From assembly GCA_021545585.1 (NCBI GenBank), contig JAJRTF010000025.1, positions 1-32,608 on the forward strand: 32,608 bases of DNA. Reading direction: 5' to 3'. This document shows positions 1,364 to 24,081 of this stretch, in pieces (position 1 is the first letter of the stretch; each line of letters starts with the position of its first letter). Source of the stretch: Zetaproteobacteria bacterium (GTDB lineage: Bacteria > Pseudomonadota > Zetaproteobacteria > Mariprofundales > Mariprofundaceae). A program made the translations under genes and the position numbers. The notes beneath the pieces are model-generated. The model was not told where the DNA came from, searched no databases, and was given only the letters and a program-made list of their open reading frames with translations.

Positions 1364-1484
1364 CAGTCATGCTGCCCTCCTTTGAGACATTGCCTGGATG
1401 TGCTCTCGATGCGTGTTTTGGGAGATAGATAAGATGCCCGCCCCAATCTCGGCGAATAGTCGCCCTCAGATCGCCGTCATTCAT
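1242..1484 (-). CDS. Mor-family-like transcription factor fragment
   Basis: The N-terminus MNDGDLRATIRRDWGGHLIY then LPK matches the WGG..IYxPK strand seen before the HTH in Mor/C-type phage activators. The start is well supported: ATGA overlap with the cro-like stop (1481-1484). After LPK the zero frame turns into an unlikely Trp/Arg-rich sequence, and no recognisable HTH follows. At the same place the bases C CCA AAA form a -1 slippery heptamer; reading on in -1 gives a natural continuation (TRIESTSRQ) to TAA 1360-1362, exactly where the opposing plus-strand gene ends. The gene may therefore be truncated, frameshifted, or decoded by frameshifting. Compare the intact relative at 24082-24354. 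Confidence 0.5.
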   Translation of the reverse strand: MNDGDLRATIRRDWGGHLIYLPKHASRAHPGNVSKEGSMTANECRFFRWWRAAKAVRPQSLHTIYQQWVRRCGASEEPSQ

Positions 1485-1678
1485 GCGGCCTCCGAATCAG
1501 GGACATCAAGCAGCGGCGTCGGATCAATGCCTTGTCGGACGCATGCCGCGATGACGCGGTCGGCAGCAGTGGGCGATAAAGGGTCACTCCAATTGTTAAT
1601 TGCTTGGTTTGTAATGCCAACCGATTGGGCGATTTTCGCCTTGCTGCCAAACAGGTTTATTACTTTTTGCATATCCAT
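1481..1678 (-). CDS. Cro/YdaS-like repressor
   Basis: A 65-residue HTH protein: MQKVINLFGSKAKIAQSVGI then TNQAINNW, followed by the PLSPTAADRVIAACVRQGID region typical of Cro/YdaS-type DNA-binding proteins of lambdoid prophages. It is divergent from the CI-like gene across an 81-bp operator region, the normal place of Cro. A GTG at 1687 is in frame, but ATG 1678 is preferred because a good -10 (TATAGT, minus strand 1691-1686) puts transcription start almost on this ATG. There is no Shine-Dalgarno, so the transcript is probably leaderless. The stop overlaps the next gene as ATGA. Confidence 0.85.
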   Translation of the reverse strand: MDMQKVINLFGSKAKIAQSVGITNQAINNWSDPLSPTAADRVIAACVRQGIDPTPLLDVPDSEAA

Positions 1679-1685
1679 GCGGCAC

Positions 1686-1759
1686 ACTATAAAGAACTAT
1701 TTACGGAAAGTAACCAACTTTTTACTTGTTGCAGTATCTATAAACAATAGTTTACAGTC
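1686..1759. promoter_or_regulatory. cI/cro divergent promoter and operator region
   Basis: Three inverted repeats share TTAC/GTAA half sites: TTAC...GTAA at 1701-1713, AAGTAA...TTACTT at 1708-1727, and TAAAC-AATA-GTTTA at 1741-1754. They overlap each other or the promoter boxes and are the likely CI/Cro operators. The leftward -10 is TATAGT (1691-1686). A rightward -10 candidate is TATAAA (1739-1744), without a convincing -35. Neither repressor gene has a Shine-Dalgarno between its -10 and ATG. Confidence 0.65.
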
Positions 1760-2374
1760 ATGAAGCAAGAAACAACCGGCGATAGAATAAAAAAAGAACG
1801 CTTGCGCCTTGGCATGAGCCAGCAGGATGTCGCTGATCTGGCTGGAATCAATAAAATGACGATATCAAGCCTGGAGCGCGGAAGAACAGTTAATCCATCA
1901 GCAGAAAATGTGAAACCCATTGCAATTGCAATAAGGGTGAACCCGGAATGGCTGACAACAGGTGAAGGTGACAAACATCAAAGATCACCCACACAGACAC
2001 GCATCAAGTCAGCACTGAAGGATGCGGATATAACCGTCATGGATTTGGTCGAAGCGTGTGGCGGTCGGCTGGCCCCTGAAACTGTCGAATTATGGTTATG
2101 TGGAACGCAGGAACCCACCGATGCAGAAATTGACATCATTGCCGCTCAACTGAGCCGCTCAACCGATTGGCTCAAGTCCGGAATGATGGTAGTGCAAGAA
2201 GGCGTGTCGGATCACATAGCGTACGACATTCACGGAGAAAGGTTGCAGGAAGCAAAAAACCCAAGAGAAAAAGCAGTCCTGGAAAGCTTTCGAAAACTCA
2301 CCCGTGAACAGCAAGATGCATATCAAACAATACTTGATGCGGTTGATCAATCAAAGGTAGCCAGGGGGAAATAA
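1760..2374 (+). CDS. CI-like repressor with two HTH-like modules and no S24 peptidase
   Basis: Residues 8-70 form a classical XRE HTH (RIKKERLRLGMSQQDVADLA, then INKMTISSLERGR) ending in the phage-repressor signature PEWLTTGEG. Residues 79-145 look like a second, diverged copy (TRIKSALKDADITVMDLVEA), ending STDWLKSGMM. The last ~55 residues are charged helix. There is no Ser/Lys peptidase domain, so RecA-stimulated self-cleavage is not expected and induction must work differently, for example through an antirepressor. The gene is divergent from cro, has no Shine-Dalgarno and may be leaderless. It is followed immediately (TAA then ATG) by the HsdR-N-like gene, forming a two-gene lysogeny operon. 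Confidence 0.85.
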   Translation: MKQETTGDRIKKERLRLGMSQQDVADLAGINKMTISSLERGRTVNPSAENVKPIAIAIRVNPEWLTTGEGDKHQRSPTQTRIKSALKDADITVMDLVEACGGRLAPETVELWLCGTQEPTDAEIDIIAAQLSRSTDWLKSGMMVVQEGVSDHIAYDIHGERLQEAKNPREKAVLESFRKLTREQQDAYQTILDAVDQSKVARGK

Positions 2375-3070
2375 ATGGCGAAATATATAAAATATAAAGC
2401 AGTGGTTGAACGCATCAGCGCGGGCATAAAGCAGGCGCAGAAAATAGCCCAAATTGCCATAGACAGGGAAATGAACGAGGCACAAACCACAGATGTGGTT
2501 GAAGATGTGCTTGAGAAGATGCTCAACTTTGACCGGTTTGAAGATCGCAAACCGCAATTCAACATCGATGGAAAAAGCAAAAACATCATTGATATATTGC
2601 TGGAATTAGGTGATGGCATTCGCATCCCCATTGAAATAAAACAGGCAACATTGAAATTGAACGATAAACACGCCGGGCAACTTGAGGATTATGCCAAACT
2701 TCTTGGCGCAGAGTTCGGCATCTTAACAAACGGCGTGGAATGGAAAATAATCCAATATTCGGCCAGTGATGGTGATGTGATGGTCTCTGAGTTTAATTTA
2801 ATTCAAGACAAACATTCGGCCATAGCAGATGCGATTTATGTATTCAGTAAAGAGGCTATCAAAGGCGGGCATACCCATAAACAAGCCGAATTATCTGCAT
2901 TCTTGCAGGCTGGAAACATTGCCGACACCATGGCTTCAAAGCGAGTACTCTCTGCTATACGTCTGGAAATGCATGACAGGCATAAAGTATACCTTGATGA
3001 AGATGACATCAGAAACGTTCTCATTGGTGAAGTAATCAGAGCGTCATTGTTATCCCCAACCCAAAAATGA
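2375..3070 (+). CDS. Stand-alone HsdR N-terminal-type nuclease-domain protein
   Basis: A 231-residue protein with a PD-(D/E)xK core as in HsdR_N domains: D73 in IIDILLEL, then E87-x-K89 in IPIEIKQATL, and the Q102xxxY106 motif (GQLEDYAKLL) typical of type I restriction and RecB-like nucleases. A strand GILTNGVEWKIIQ follows. No helicase motor is attached and no HsdM/HsdS is nearby, so this is not a type I restriction system. The start abuts the cI stop, with AGGGGG upstream, so it is expressed from the prophage with the repressor. That context suggests superinfection exclusion or another lysogen-protective role; this is inference. Its 3' end overlaps the converging lipoprotein gene by 35 bases. 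Confidence 0.8.
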   Translation: MAKYIKYKAVVERISAGIKQAQKIAQIAIDREMNEAQTTDVVEDVLEKMLNFDRFEDRKPQFNIDGKSKNIIDILLELGDGIRIPIEIKQATLKLNDKHAGQLEDYAKLLGAEFGILTNGVEWKIIQYSASDGDVMVSEFNLIQDKHSAIADAIYVFSKEAIKGGHTHKQAELSAFLQAGNIADTMASKRVLSAIRLEMHDRHKVYLDEDDIRNVLIGEVIRASLLSPTQK

Positions 3071-3434
3071 ACACCGCCCCTTGGCCAACCAGCCCCGAGC
3101 AGATCAATCCGGATATGCTGGATGATATTGCGGCGGCCGTGGCGGCACCGGCGCGGATGCCGGTTTTGGCGACGTCGGCGATGATCTTCTGGCCCTGGAA
3201 TGCTTTGACAGACAACTCATGCAGATGCCCCTTGAATGAACCGTCCGGCTTTATGCTTACATCAGCTGTGATTTCTCCGATTTCTTTGCCGTTGCGGATC
3301 TCCCACGAACAGCATTGCTTAGCGCCATTTCTGTCAACATAAAGCTGAACCTTCATTGTCGAGTTGCCGGCGTAGTTCAGCGATGCGCAACCGCTCATGG
3401 CGGCCAGTGTTAATGCTATTATCAGTCGTTTCAT
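3036..3434 (-). CDS. Prophage lipoprotein of the lysis cassette
   Basis: The protein begins MKRLIIALTLAAMSGCASLN, a clear lipoprotein signal with lipobox MSGC, so Cys16 should be lipidated after cleavage. The mature part has a small beta domain (KVQLYVDRNGAKQCCSWEIR) and then an Ala/Gly-rich hydrophobic C-terminus (ISSSISGLICSGLVGQGAVF) that could insert in membrane. It overlaps the upstream membrane-protein gene by ATGA (3431-3434). It is last in the lysis operon, where spanin outer-membrane subunits or other late lipoproteins usually sit. It is longer than Rz1, so a spanin role is only possible. It converges with and overlaps the HsdR-N-like gene. Confidence 0.75.
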   Translation of the reverse strand: MKRLIIALTLAAMSGCASLNYAGNSTMKVQLYVDRNGAKQCCSWEIRNGKEIGEITADVSIKPDGSFKGHLHELSVKAFQGQKIIADVAKTGIRAGAATAAAISSSISGLICSGLVGQGAVFIFGLGITMTL

Positions 3435-22434: not shown

Positions 22435-22764
22435 TTACGATGTTTCTGCAATGATCCTGTTTTTTATCTCATCCTTTACTGCCAGCGCATCATCAGACAT
22501 TGCAACAATCAGTGGGTCAATCCCTTCGCCCCAGAACACCTGGCACACTTTAAGCACAGCATCGCTGGCTATTTCACCGGCAACGACCGACAGACAGGCA
22601 TCGCGAACATTTTTGCGCGGCGAGCGTTTGCCGTACTCCCACTCCGAAATACGAGACACCGGAAACGGTTCAGCGCGGCCAGTCTTTCCGGCCAGCCATA
22701 CGCCGAATGTTTCCTGAGTCATGTCCAGCGCCGCTCTTGCTGCTTTAACGATGTTTGAATTCAT
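22435..22764 (-). CDS. XRE HTH regulator, Aca candidate
   Basis: A 109-residue protein with one XRE HTH: AARAALDMTQETFGVWLAGK, a short insertion (TGRAEPFP), then VSRISEWEYGKRSP; the last ~45 residues are helical. GAGGT lies 8 bases before ATG 22764. It is transcribed leftward, divergent from the CRISPR-repeat sRNA, and their short shared promoter region contains the palindrome ACGAT-TTGC-ATCGT. This matches anti-CRISPR-associated (Aca) autoregulators in size, HTH and position, but no Aca family is recognised by sequence. It could also be an ordinary phage regulator. Confidence 0.75.
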   Translation of the reverse strand: MNSNIVKAARAALDMTQETFGVWLAGKTGRAEPFPVSRISEWEYGKRSPRKNVRDACLSVVAGEIASDAVLKVCQVFWGEGIDPLIVAMSDDALAVKDEIKNRIIAETS

Positions 22765-22766
22765 GC

Positions 22767-22795
22767 TTGACCTCTTTTTTCATAGAGACTACGAT
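22767..22795 (+). promoter_or_regulatory. Sigma70 promoter of the CRISPR-repeat sRNA
   Basis: -35 TTGACC (22767-22772), 17-bp spacer, -10 TACGAT (22790-22795). Transcription start is predicted at 22801-22803, i.e. at the first base of the CRISPR repeat. It overlaps the 5' region and ribosome site of the divergent HTH gene. Confidence 0.7.
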
Positions 22796-22804
22796 TTGCA
22801 TCGT
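22791..22804. promoter_or_regulatory. Palindromic operator ACGAT-TTGC-ATCGT
   Basis: A perfect 5-bp inverted repeat with a 4-bp centre covers the sRNA -10 box and transcription start. Binding here would repress the sRNA, and it is also just upstream of the HTH gene promoter. The adjacent HTH protein is the natural candidate ligand. Confidence 0.6.
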
Positions 22805-22830
22805 TCACTGCCGCACAGGCAGCTTAGAAA
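22803..22830 (+). CRISPR. Solitary type I-F CRISPR repeat (28 nt)
   Basis: Length, terminal GTTCACTGCC, 5-bp CTGCC/GGCAG stem with GCACA loop and 3' CTTAGAAA handle are all as in canonical type I-F repeats of gammaproteobacteria. Only one complete repeat exists, followed at 22833-22852 by a diverged copy of the first 20 bases. There is no spacer, leader array or cas gene, so it is not a CRISPR array. Confidence 0.92.
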
Positions 22831-22860
22831 AACTTCACTGCTGTACAAGCAGAGTTAATG

Positions 22861-22889
22861 AAAGAGCCTCCTTTGCCGGAGGCTCTTTT
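22861..22889. terminator. Bidirectional intrinsic terminator
   Basis: An 11-bp perfect stem (AAAGAGCCTCC with GGAGGCTCTTT) with a six-base loop. On the plus strand it ends in TTTT then AATTTT and closes the sRNA; on the minus strand it lies just after the stop of the orphan gene ending at 22894. The two transcripts converge here. Confidence 0.9.
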
Positions 22890-22893
22890 AATT

Positions 22894-23352
22894 TTAGTCA
22901 CCCCATGCTTCGCGCTCTGCCGCTTTTTGGTCTTCTTTTTCTTGCAATGATGATTTAATTTCATCTTCACTTGATTCGATAAGACTTGTATATTCAATAT
23001 CCGCATCGGGATCAAGGCTTTCTCTGATATATTTGTAAATCTGCAAAGCTTCTTCAGCAGTAAAATCAATGTCGTCAAAATCTGATTCATACATTTGTTC
23101 AATCTTTGCAATCACAGAATCTGTTCCTGCGATCTCTTCCATTGAAATTTCTTCGCATGGCATACTATAATCGTTCTGATAAAAACTATGCCCGGCCTGA
23201 TAATTGACATGGTACTCTTTATCATTGACTTTTAGAGTAGTAAATACGTCAACATTACTGTAAATGTATTCGCTGTGTGTGTTTCCTCCGCATTTTTGCG
23301 AATCATGATAGATACTTTCGAATGCTGTGTGGCTAATGTTTAGTTTTGTCAT
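22894..23352 (-). CDS. Orphan acidic protein, anti-defence candidate (152 aa)
   Basis: Starts MTKLNISHTAFESIYHDSQK and ends in a long acidic helix (EDEIKSSLQEKEDQKAAERE). The middle has KVNDKEYHVNYQAGHSFYQN and FDDIDFTAEEALQIYKYI. It is small, strongly acidic and AT-rich, unlike its structural-gene neighbours, with no recognised domain. ATG 23352 is chosen because GGGAG lies 8 bases before it. It has its own strong promoter and structured leader (see 23353-23440) and ends at the bidirectional terminator. Size, charge, orphan status and neighbours (CRISPR-repeat sRNA, HTH regulator) make it an anti-CRISPR or other counter-defence candidate; no known Acr is recognised. Confidence 0.7.
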   Translation of the reverse strand: MTKLNISHTAFESIYHDSQKCGGNTHSEYIYSNVDVFTTLKVNDKEYHVNYQAGHSFYQNDYSMPCEEISMEEIAGTDSVIAKIEQMYESDFDDIDFTAEEALQIYKYIRESLDPDADIEYTSLIESSEDEIKSSLQEKEDQKAAEREAWGD

Positions 23353-23440
23353 TTTAATCTCCCGCACCCCGTTAGCCGGTGCCGCTTTGGTTTCCCTTTC
23401 GGGATACGGTAATTTTACGCTTTATGCGTAAGCTTATCAA
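23353..23440 (-). promoter_or_regulatory. Promoter, operator and structured leader, copy 2
   Basis: -35 TTGATA (23440-23435), 17-bp spacer, -10 TAAAAT (23417-23412). The palindrome TTACGCATAAAGCGTAA (23431-23415) fills the spacer. The RNA is predicted to start A at 23405 directly before the hairpin TCCC-GAAA-GGGA (23404-23393, GNRA loop). A second hairpin GCACC...GGTGC (23382-23364) lies just before the GGGAG ribosome site. The same cassette precedes the gene at 23636. Confidence 0.78.
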
Positions 23441-23464
23441 GCACTTTATGCATGTTTATTTTGC

Positions 23465-23489
23465 CGATGTTTGAATTCAAGCTTGACCT
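23465..23489 (-). repeat. 25-bp duplication of the HTH gene start region
   Basis: Minus strand reads AGGTCAAGC, T, then TGAATTCAAACATCG; at 22774-22750 the HTH gene 5' end has the same bases except for A at the marked position, which changes its ATG into TTG here. It is therefore a dead copy of a gene start and marks an old duplication or insertion junction. Confidence 0.8.
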
Positions 23490-23495
23490 ATCTGT

Positions 23496-23639
23496 TTAGC
23501 ATTCAATATATTGTTTCACCTTCTCAATCGGTGCGCCCCCAACGGTGGAAACAAAATAGGAGTTTGTCCAAAGGGTGGGTAGTTTGGTCGTCAAGTGTTT
23601 GAACTCTTGTCTTAGCAATCGACTACTCCTCCCCTTCAT
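23496..23639 (-). pseudogene. IS200/IS605-family TnpA remnant (C-terminal part)
   Basis: A 47-codon frame MKGRSSRLLRQEFKHLTTKL, then PTLWTNSYFVSTVGGAPIEK and VKQYIEC. It matches the end of Y1 (HUH) transposases: the KGRSSR..RQEF helix, LWTxSYFVSTVGG strand and VKQYIE helix with the catalytic Tyr. The N-terminal two thirds, including HUH, are missing, so it is inactive. Its first ATG overlaps the stop of the 113-residue orphan gene (ATGA). It indicates that a single-stranded-DNA transposon once landed in this island. Confidence 0.82.
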
Positions 23640-23977
23640 TTGCTTGATAGGCCGATGTATTCCGCATTAAAAGCTTGAGATGTGTTTAGTATGCGCTTAA
23701 ACTCTTTAATAGTTGCTTTGAACTCATCAATGTTTTCACTAGACGCAAGCTGGAAAAGATGCTCAAACAATTTTGCACTTGTCAGCATCGACCGCTGTTC
23801 AAATGTGTAGTCATTCTTTGAGTGCATCATTTCCTCATCATTGAGAAGCTTTTCAACACAATCGTTGATTGACTCTATCAGAGTCCAGTCTTCAATCTGC
23901 GTTCCTGTGAAATAATTATTTGACGTTTTGACTGCATACAGTCCATATTTGAATCCAGTCATTTTTGTGTTGTTCAT
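23636..23977 (-). CDS. Orphan protein, anti-defence candidate (113 aa)
   Basis: Start MNNTKMTGFKYGLYAVKTSN; mostly alpha-helical afterwards (WTLIESINDCVEKLLNDEEM, AKLFEHLFQLASSENIDEFK). AT-rich, acidic, no domain recognised, no signal or membrane segment. GGAG lies 8 bases before ATG 23977. It is expressed from copy 1 of the duplicated promoter-leader. It is not similar to the other orphan gene, so the control cassette, not the protein, is duplicated. An anti-defence or other moron role is inferred from context only. Confidence 0.7.
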   Translation of the reverse strand: MNNTKMTGFKYGLYAVKTSNNYFTGTQIEDWTLIESINDCVEKLLNDEEMMHSKNDYTFEQRSMLTSAKLFEHLFQLASSENIDEFKATIKEFKRILNTSQAFNAEYIGLSSK

Positions 23978-24066
23978 CTTTAATCTCCTGCACCCCGTCA
24001 GCCGGTGCCGCTTTGATTTCCCTCTCGGGATAGATGTATATTACGCTTTATGAGTAATCGCGTCAA
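23978..24066 (-). promoter_or_regulatory. Promoter, operator and structured leader, copy 1
   Basis: -35 TTGACG (24066-24061), 17-bp spacer, -10 TAATAT (24043-24038), close to consensus. The spacer holds TTACTCATAAAGCGTAA (24057-24041), one base off the perfect palindrome of copy 2. The leader starts at the hairpin TCCC-GAGA-GGGA (24030-24019; GNRA loop kept) and has the GCACC...GGTGC hairpin (24008-23990) before GGAG. Confidence 0.78.
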
Positions 24067-24081
24067 GCGTTTCTGCATGTT

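Follow-up and report, generated by a model that had tools for sequence, protein, structure and literature searches.

We found that a phage contig of a Zetaproteobacteria bacterium carries a small RNA locus in which a perfect type I-F CRISPR repeat is followed, after only 2 nt, by a degenerate second repeat that keeps its hairpin. We put at about 0.68 the probability that this locus encodes a Racr-like RNA anti-CRISPR, carried by a prophage and consisting of two hairpins without a guide, which would trap Cas6f on both hairpins. What is shown is the sequence of the RNA, its predicted structure, its recurrence and the identity of its repeat with repeats of the host family; binding, cutting and inhibition are what we infer. 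The window, by which we mean the whole stretch of 32,608 nt that was analysed, is of phage origin, with genes for a terminase large subunit, a portal, a head-tail joining protein, a primase, a minor tail protein and a Mor-like late activator, and its GC content (0.545) and tetranucleotide profile (r 0.90) agree with those of the metagenome-assembled genome (MAG) bin.

The small RNA and its parts

The RNA is intergenic (22764 to 22894), lying between a gene for a divergent HTH protein and an acidic 152-aa ORF (Table 1). The initial annotation had described a sigma70 promoter with its start at a perfect 28-nt type I-F repeat, a degenerate repeat two bases on, a pairing-neutral change in the second hairpin and an intrinsic terminator, and each of these parts was recovered. 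The window is one contig of a 1.75-Mb MAG in which the repeat is the sole type I-F match. The transcription start predicted from the promoter-like site falls at 22802-22803, ~7 nt past the promoter end; in L034, L173, L153, L154 and L190, other loci with such a repeat, the highest-ranking promoter-like site likewise ends 2-6 nt ahead of it.

In the second hairpin, the loop-closing C-G pair has become T-A (CTGCC/GGCAG to CTGCT/AGCAG) with pairing kept, and downstream of it AGTTAATG replaces the handle CTTAGAAA. The word "covarying", which had been applied to this hairpin, rests on one compensated pair, although the same swap recurs in other copies. Chance is excluded as the source of the second repeat: its local score is 13, whereas 2000 shuffled versions of the flank gave 6.1 +/- 1.1 and never reached 13. 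The predicted fold of the whole RNA consists of the two hairpins and the terminator (-37.6 kcal/mol, z -5.5, with no shuffle doing as well), and the terminator supplies much of this score, the 54-nt two-hairpin part without it having a z of -2.2 against mononucleotide shuffles.

Table 1. Features of the small RNA and of the surrounding locus in the window
Feature	Position	Strand	Basis or remark
Sigma70-like promoter, TTGACC-17-TACGAT	22767-22795	+	9/12 consensus bases
Perfect 28-nt type I-F CRISPR repeat, GTTCACTGCCGCACAGGCAGCTTAGAAA	22803-22830	+	Rfam CRISPR-DR4, 50.1 bits, E 4e-9
Cas6f hairpin of first repeat	22808-22822	+	sequence
5' handle CTTAGAAA of first repeat	22823-22830	+	sequence
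Linker AA, 2 nt, where the spacer would be	22831-22832	+	sequence
Degenerate second repeat, CTTCA + hairpin	22833-22852	+	sequence, fold, shuffle test
Second Cas6f-type hairpin, CTGCT-GTACA-AGCAG	22838-22852	+	sequence
Intrinsic terminator, 13 pairs	22859-22890	+	common to the convergent 152-aa gene, face to face
Divergent HTH gene, 109 aa, putative new Aca-like repressor	22435-22764	-	homologues in L255 and L034
Acidic 152-aa ORF, candidate anti-CRISPR or other anti-defence gene	22894-23352	-	behind promoter/operator/leader cassette
Promoter, inverted-repeat operator and leader before 152-aa ORF	23364-23441	-	sequence
Operator TTACGC-ATAAA-GCGTAA, perfect inverted repeat	23415-23431	-	within core promoter
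113-aa ORF, second candidate gene of the locus	23636-23977	-	behind second cassette copy
Second promoter/operator/leader cassette, before 113-aa ORF	23990-24070	-	imperfect operator copy

Recurrence in phages and repeats of the host family

When sequence patterns were run over IMG/VR and 85,000 species genomes, with arrays and chance matches removed, they returned 11 further repeats with a second hairpin downstream, on IMG/VR contigs and in one Methylophaga prophage; a search for the two-hairpin form in other phages had been suggested by the initial annotation. The resulting set of 12 comprises the window, L034, L011, L132, L140 (= L148), L153, L173, L174, L180, L183, L190 and L202. Many matches to looser patterns were set aside because they lay in coding sequence and had no first hairpin, and among 399 genomes of the phylum the exact form was found in the window only. 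As read from the sequences, the second handle is absent in 10 of the 12 copies and a terminator-like hairpin ends 7 of them; the linkers measure 2, 14, 14, 20, 18, 18, 17, 21, 24, ~39, 41 and 48 nt. A second hairpin lies <=100 nt downstream in 9 of 16 solitary type I-F repeats (0.005 expected in shuffles), a set that the search patterns enriched for this form, and in an unbiased pattern sample ~4 of 9 interior solitary repeats have it.

The C-G to T-A swap occurs in the second hairpin of the window, L034, L132 and L180 and in the first hairpin of L173. In predicted folds, L011, L140 and L190, which have identical arms, pair one hairpin with the other, and copies with the swap form their hairpins separately. 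These predictions weakly suggest that, through the swap, the two Cas6f sites stay independent of each other, and only weakly because L153, L174, L183 and L202 fold locally without it. Three other arrangements of such repeats were seen. On the phage contig L180, three Cas6f-type hairpins, two with handles, lie within ~110 nt (1127-1240). L016 has two full type I-F repeats 48 bp apart with the same 15 bases after each (3114-3200), a tandem duplication of a repeat and partial spacer. A Thauera sp. MAG (L028) contains several short I-F-like arrays whose repeats stand 54 bp apart (26-nt spacers) rather than 60.

The Methylophaga prophage L034, which has a terminase and a portal nearby (called by eye from the sequence), carries the same module as the window: a leader cassette, two small ORFs, a convergent two-hairpin RNA with its terminator and a divergent HTH gene. 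In its RNA, the first repeat is perfect and identical to the window's, the linker measures 21 nt, and the second hairpin again shows the C-G to T-A swap. The suspicion that the tandem form under a divergent HTH gene is a subtype of its own is strengthened by this module and by the copies in unrelated phage contigs.

Arrays with the window's repeat exist in the host group, as the initial annotation had thought worth checking. All 28 bases are identical in 14 repeat copies in the arrays of one host-family genome (G024) and in 3 copies in the array of another (G030), and the array repeat of a third (G023) is one base off. Overall, type I-F repeats occur in 14 of 74 host-family genomes, the window's own MAG counted, and Cas6f (PF09618) in 5. 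The host MAG, which is 87% complete, yielded neither Cas6f nor a CRISPR array, and the target may therefore be in sister hosts; the host itself may be without type I-F, or its MAG may miss the system. Type I-F arrays are also found in Methylophaga relatives, their repeat being different at a single base of the loop. Comparison of 253 spacers from host-family and Methylophaga arrays with phages gave no match above the reversed control.

The accessory locus around the RNA

The locus that carries the small RNA is accessory. The Mor gene and the head-tail joining gene are separated by ~1.8 kb in the window and by only 52 bp in the relative L253, and the GC content of the locus is about 38-48%, compared with about 54-61% in the surrounding phage genes. 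The repeat unit is present in none of the phage relatives identified by terminase (L253-L259), and blastn of the 161-bp locus against 50,697 phage records gave nothing of note. The 152-aa ORF matched no PHROG or NCBIfam family and no Pfam family over the cut-off, the 113-aa ORF matched no PHROG, Pfam or NCBIfam family over the cut-off, and no known acr gene was detected near the small RNA by NCBIfam or Pfam over the cut-off.

The HTH protein has homologues in L255 (66% identical), a close relative of the phage (portal 86%, capsid 85%), and in L034 (52% identical), where the gene stands beside the dual-hairpin RNA. Its AlphaFold model (pLDDT 92.7) combines an HTH with C-terminal helices. There was no PHROG match, no match to Pfam Aca2_YdiL and no PDB sequence match, profile search included, and Foldseek returned very weak matches only, among them Aca2/YdiL-like structures (E 0.4-1.6); an assignment to Aca2 was rejected on these grounds. 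As judged by Pfam and PDB sequence comparison, the protein thus falls outside the known Aca families.

In acr-aca operons, the regulator and leader are constant and the small ORFs are exchanged (PMC9410906), and, to judge from its gene and motif arrangement, our locus follows the same logic. The operator TTACGC-N5-GCGTAA is perfect before the 152-aa ORF and in L255 and imperfect before the 113-aa ORF and in L034 and L265. In L255, the cassette is followed by an 89-94-aa ORF, an acidic 45-aa ORF and the HTH homologue, with stop/start overlap. In L265, which has different head genes, it precedes another, 116-aa ORF, a 49-aa ORF (63% to the 45-aa ORF of L255) and a short HTH homologue; in both, the HTH gene comes after small ORFs in one operon. 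The leader before the 152-aa ORF contains the hairpins CCCGAAAGGG and GCACC..GGGGTGC, and a two-hairpin leader lies by the ribosome-binding site before L255:4134, L034:1930, L265:3499 and positions 23352 and 23977 of the window, these two being its only copies in the host family. Standing before unrelated small ORFs, these leader hairpins may be where the HTH protein binds, either to RNA or to DNA. The small variable ORFs, the HTH gene that closes the operon in L255 and L265 and the inverted repeat inside the core promoter resemble the described operons of Aca1-Aca10 (PMC9410906); unlike those, the locus has an HTH protein with no match to a known Aca by Pfam or PDB sequence, and no known Acr neighbour. 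The small RNA's own promoter lies outside the operator.

Two further features of the window deserve mention. The start of the HTH gene (AGGTCAAGC.TGAATTCAAACATCG, 22750-22774, minus strand) recurs ahead of the 152-aa ORF at 23461-23490 (minus strand), a scar left where a cassette was duplicated within the locus. Elsewhere, a 231-aa protein with an HsdR-N-like domain (2375-3070, plus strand) adjoins a CI-like repressor and a Cro/YdaS-like gene, its neighbours lying at 1760-2374 (plus strand) and 1481-1687 (minus strand).

How the RNA may act

In the mechanism that we favour, an RNA of ~90 nt would be transcribed from the prophage or in the early phase of infection. The Cas6f of the host would bind both hairpins, cut after 22822 and after 22852, and stay on both products, a 20-nt hairpin RNA and a 30-nt RNA made of handle, 2 nt and hairpin. 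Two Cas6f molecules would thus be tied up per transcript, and pre-crRNA processing and Cascade assembly would be starved. The 30-nt piece would also offer its 5' handle to Cas5f/Cas8f, though it would not be long enough for a Cascade that is stable or guided. This predicted product equals a '-30' crRNA made in the laboratory (PMC7296934); the latter was engineered, whereas here it would arise from a natural phage RNA. In the type I-F1 system of Aggregatibacter, Cascade resisted purification with spacers of 2 nt or 8 nt but was obtained with 14 nt, and none of the truncated spacers gave interference (PMC7296934). Given these results, the 2-nt linker favours the trapping of two Cas6f by the window RNA. 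Partial Cascade trapping is possible in relatives with linkers of at least 14 nt, and those with 14-21 nt could also form short, interference-dead Cascades. The surroundings would be an anti-CRISPR-type island of small candidate genes with a shared operator and leader and a new HTH repressor.

One of the closest known systems is RacrIF1, from a Thiocystis violascens prophage (Camara-Wilpert 2023, PMC10651486). Cas6f binds and cuts its solitary repeat, and its activity lies in the part upstream of the Cas6f cut, where a Cas7f filament forms on about 70-76 nt, Cas7f being recruited on ~50 nt upstream of the hairpin (PMC10651486). Like RacrIF1, the window RNA is an intergenic prophage small RNA with a type I-F repeat, its own promoter (within 250 bp), a Cas6f hairpin and a handle; it mimics the repeat of host-family arrays, and its predicted structure, by Rfam match and fold, is like that of the repeat. 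It most likely works like a Racr. However, it has 20 nt upstream of the first cut instead of ~70-76 nt, and it carries a second, handle-less hairpin. From the predicted start, 5 nt precede the first hairpin, the upstream gene being on the other strand, and there is no room for a Cas7f filament of the RacrIF1 type. Circumstance gives good support to the original proposal that the phage encodes an RNA anti-CRISPR directed at type I-F, namely the phage context, the repeat and Cas6f of the host family, the RNA's own promoter and terminator and the acr-aca-like locus. Of the accompanying idea that the RNA titrates Cas6f and Cas7f, the Cas7f part is doubtful because of these 5 nt.

The window RNA also departs from the solitary repeat units (SRUs) catalogued with SRUFinder (PMC10651486). 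It shares with them a repeat at least 90% identical to a known one, an intergenic place on a virus and a promoter at hand, but SRUFinder drops repeats with a >70% match in the 100-bp flank (PMC10651486), and the right flank of the window repeat matches at 77%. When we re-enacted this filter, 10 of the 12 two-hairpin copies scored >=75% and four single repeats scored <=62%, so the published census would be blind to most two-hairpin copies. On its sequence, then, the window RNA is no SRU by the published operational rule and cannot act quite as RacrIF1 does. Viral mini-CRISPR arrays likewise have more than one repeat copy in a virus, but the window RNA lacks a guide-length spacer (2 nt rather than about 32 nt).

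A different fate for the same products would make the RNA a full crRNA mimic. After the two Cas6f cuts, the handle-linker-hairpin piece would seed a short, dead Cascade (Cas8f-Cas5f-Cas7f-Cas6f) and so trap the large subunits too. The handle sits between both Cas6f sites in the window and in the other two-hairpin copies, the second handle would be dispensable, the 2-nt spacer is the one-Cas7f case of L = 6N - 4 (PMC7296934), and the 14-nt linkers of L173 and L174 correspond to the shortest stable type I-F1 complex (PMC7296934). Nonetheless, the failure to purify the 2-nt and 8-nt complexes counts against it, as do the linkers (2 to 48 nt): a 6-nt (Cas7f) periodicity was rejected, the lengths 2, 14, 14 and 20 fitting in 4 of 12 cases with 2 expected. 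We regard this account as unlikely, though far from negligible.

We consider it improbable that the locus is a decayed mini-CRISPR array, a captured repeat-spacer-repeat unit that lost its spacer and has no present function. The spacer is almost gone, and degeneracy such as that of the second repeat is common in terminal array repeats. However, the first repeat is perfect, the change in the second keeps pairing, promoter and terminator are intact, and the layout recurs in L034, an unrelated prophage, as well as on further phage contigs. Still less probable is a role in the phage's own regulation, in which the RNA would control, in cis or as an antisense RNA, the operon that holds the 152-aa ORF and HTH gene and would resemble the host repeat only secondarily. 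The RNA does lie antisense between these genes, face to face over one terminator, but such a role would leave the identity with the host-family repeat, handle included, unexplained, and two-hairpin copies exist in phages without this operon. A crRNA-like guide (of the CreA/CreR type or a viral mini-array) that sends the host Cascade to a promoter or rival phage is scarcely credible, for although handle and hairpin are as in a crRNA and some relatives have 14-21 nt between them, 2 nt cannot guide, which excludes the window RNA by length, and the linker of the homologous L034 RNA differs in sequence and length, which argues that no guide has been kept.

Returning to Cas6f trapping, we tentatively suggest, at somewhat less than even odds, that two-hairpin RNAs with the handle in the middle form a recurrent class of RNA anti-CRISPR in their own right, acting as natural mini-crRNAs that lack a guide and offer two traps for Cas6f, that in at least two phage lineages they lie within an anti-CRISPR island together with a new Aca family and new Acr proteins, and that the design of the published survey removed them. 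Because the only large survey of RNA anti-CRISPRs dropped repeats with a similar copy within 100 bp, the whole architecture may have been missed; in our small unbiased sample it accounts for about half of interior solitary type I-F repeats. If the RNA works as proposed, it would represent a second mode of action for a repeat mimic, Cas6f trapping without a Cas7f filament, and would supply natural substrates of the short-spacer kind, which have so far been made only in the laboratory. The HTH-leader-operator cassette, in turn, could serve as bait for new Acr proteins.
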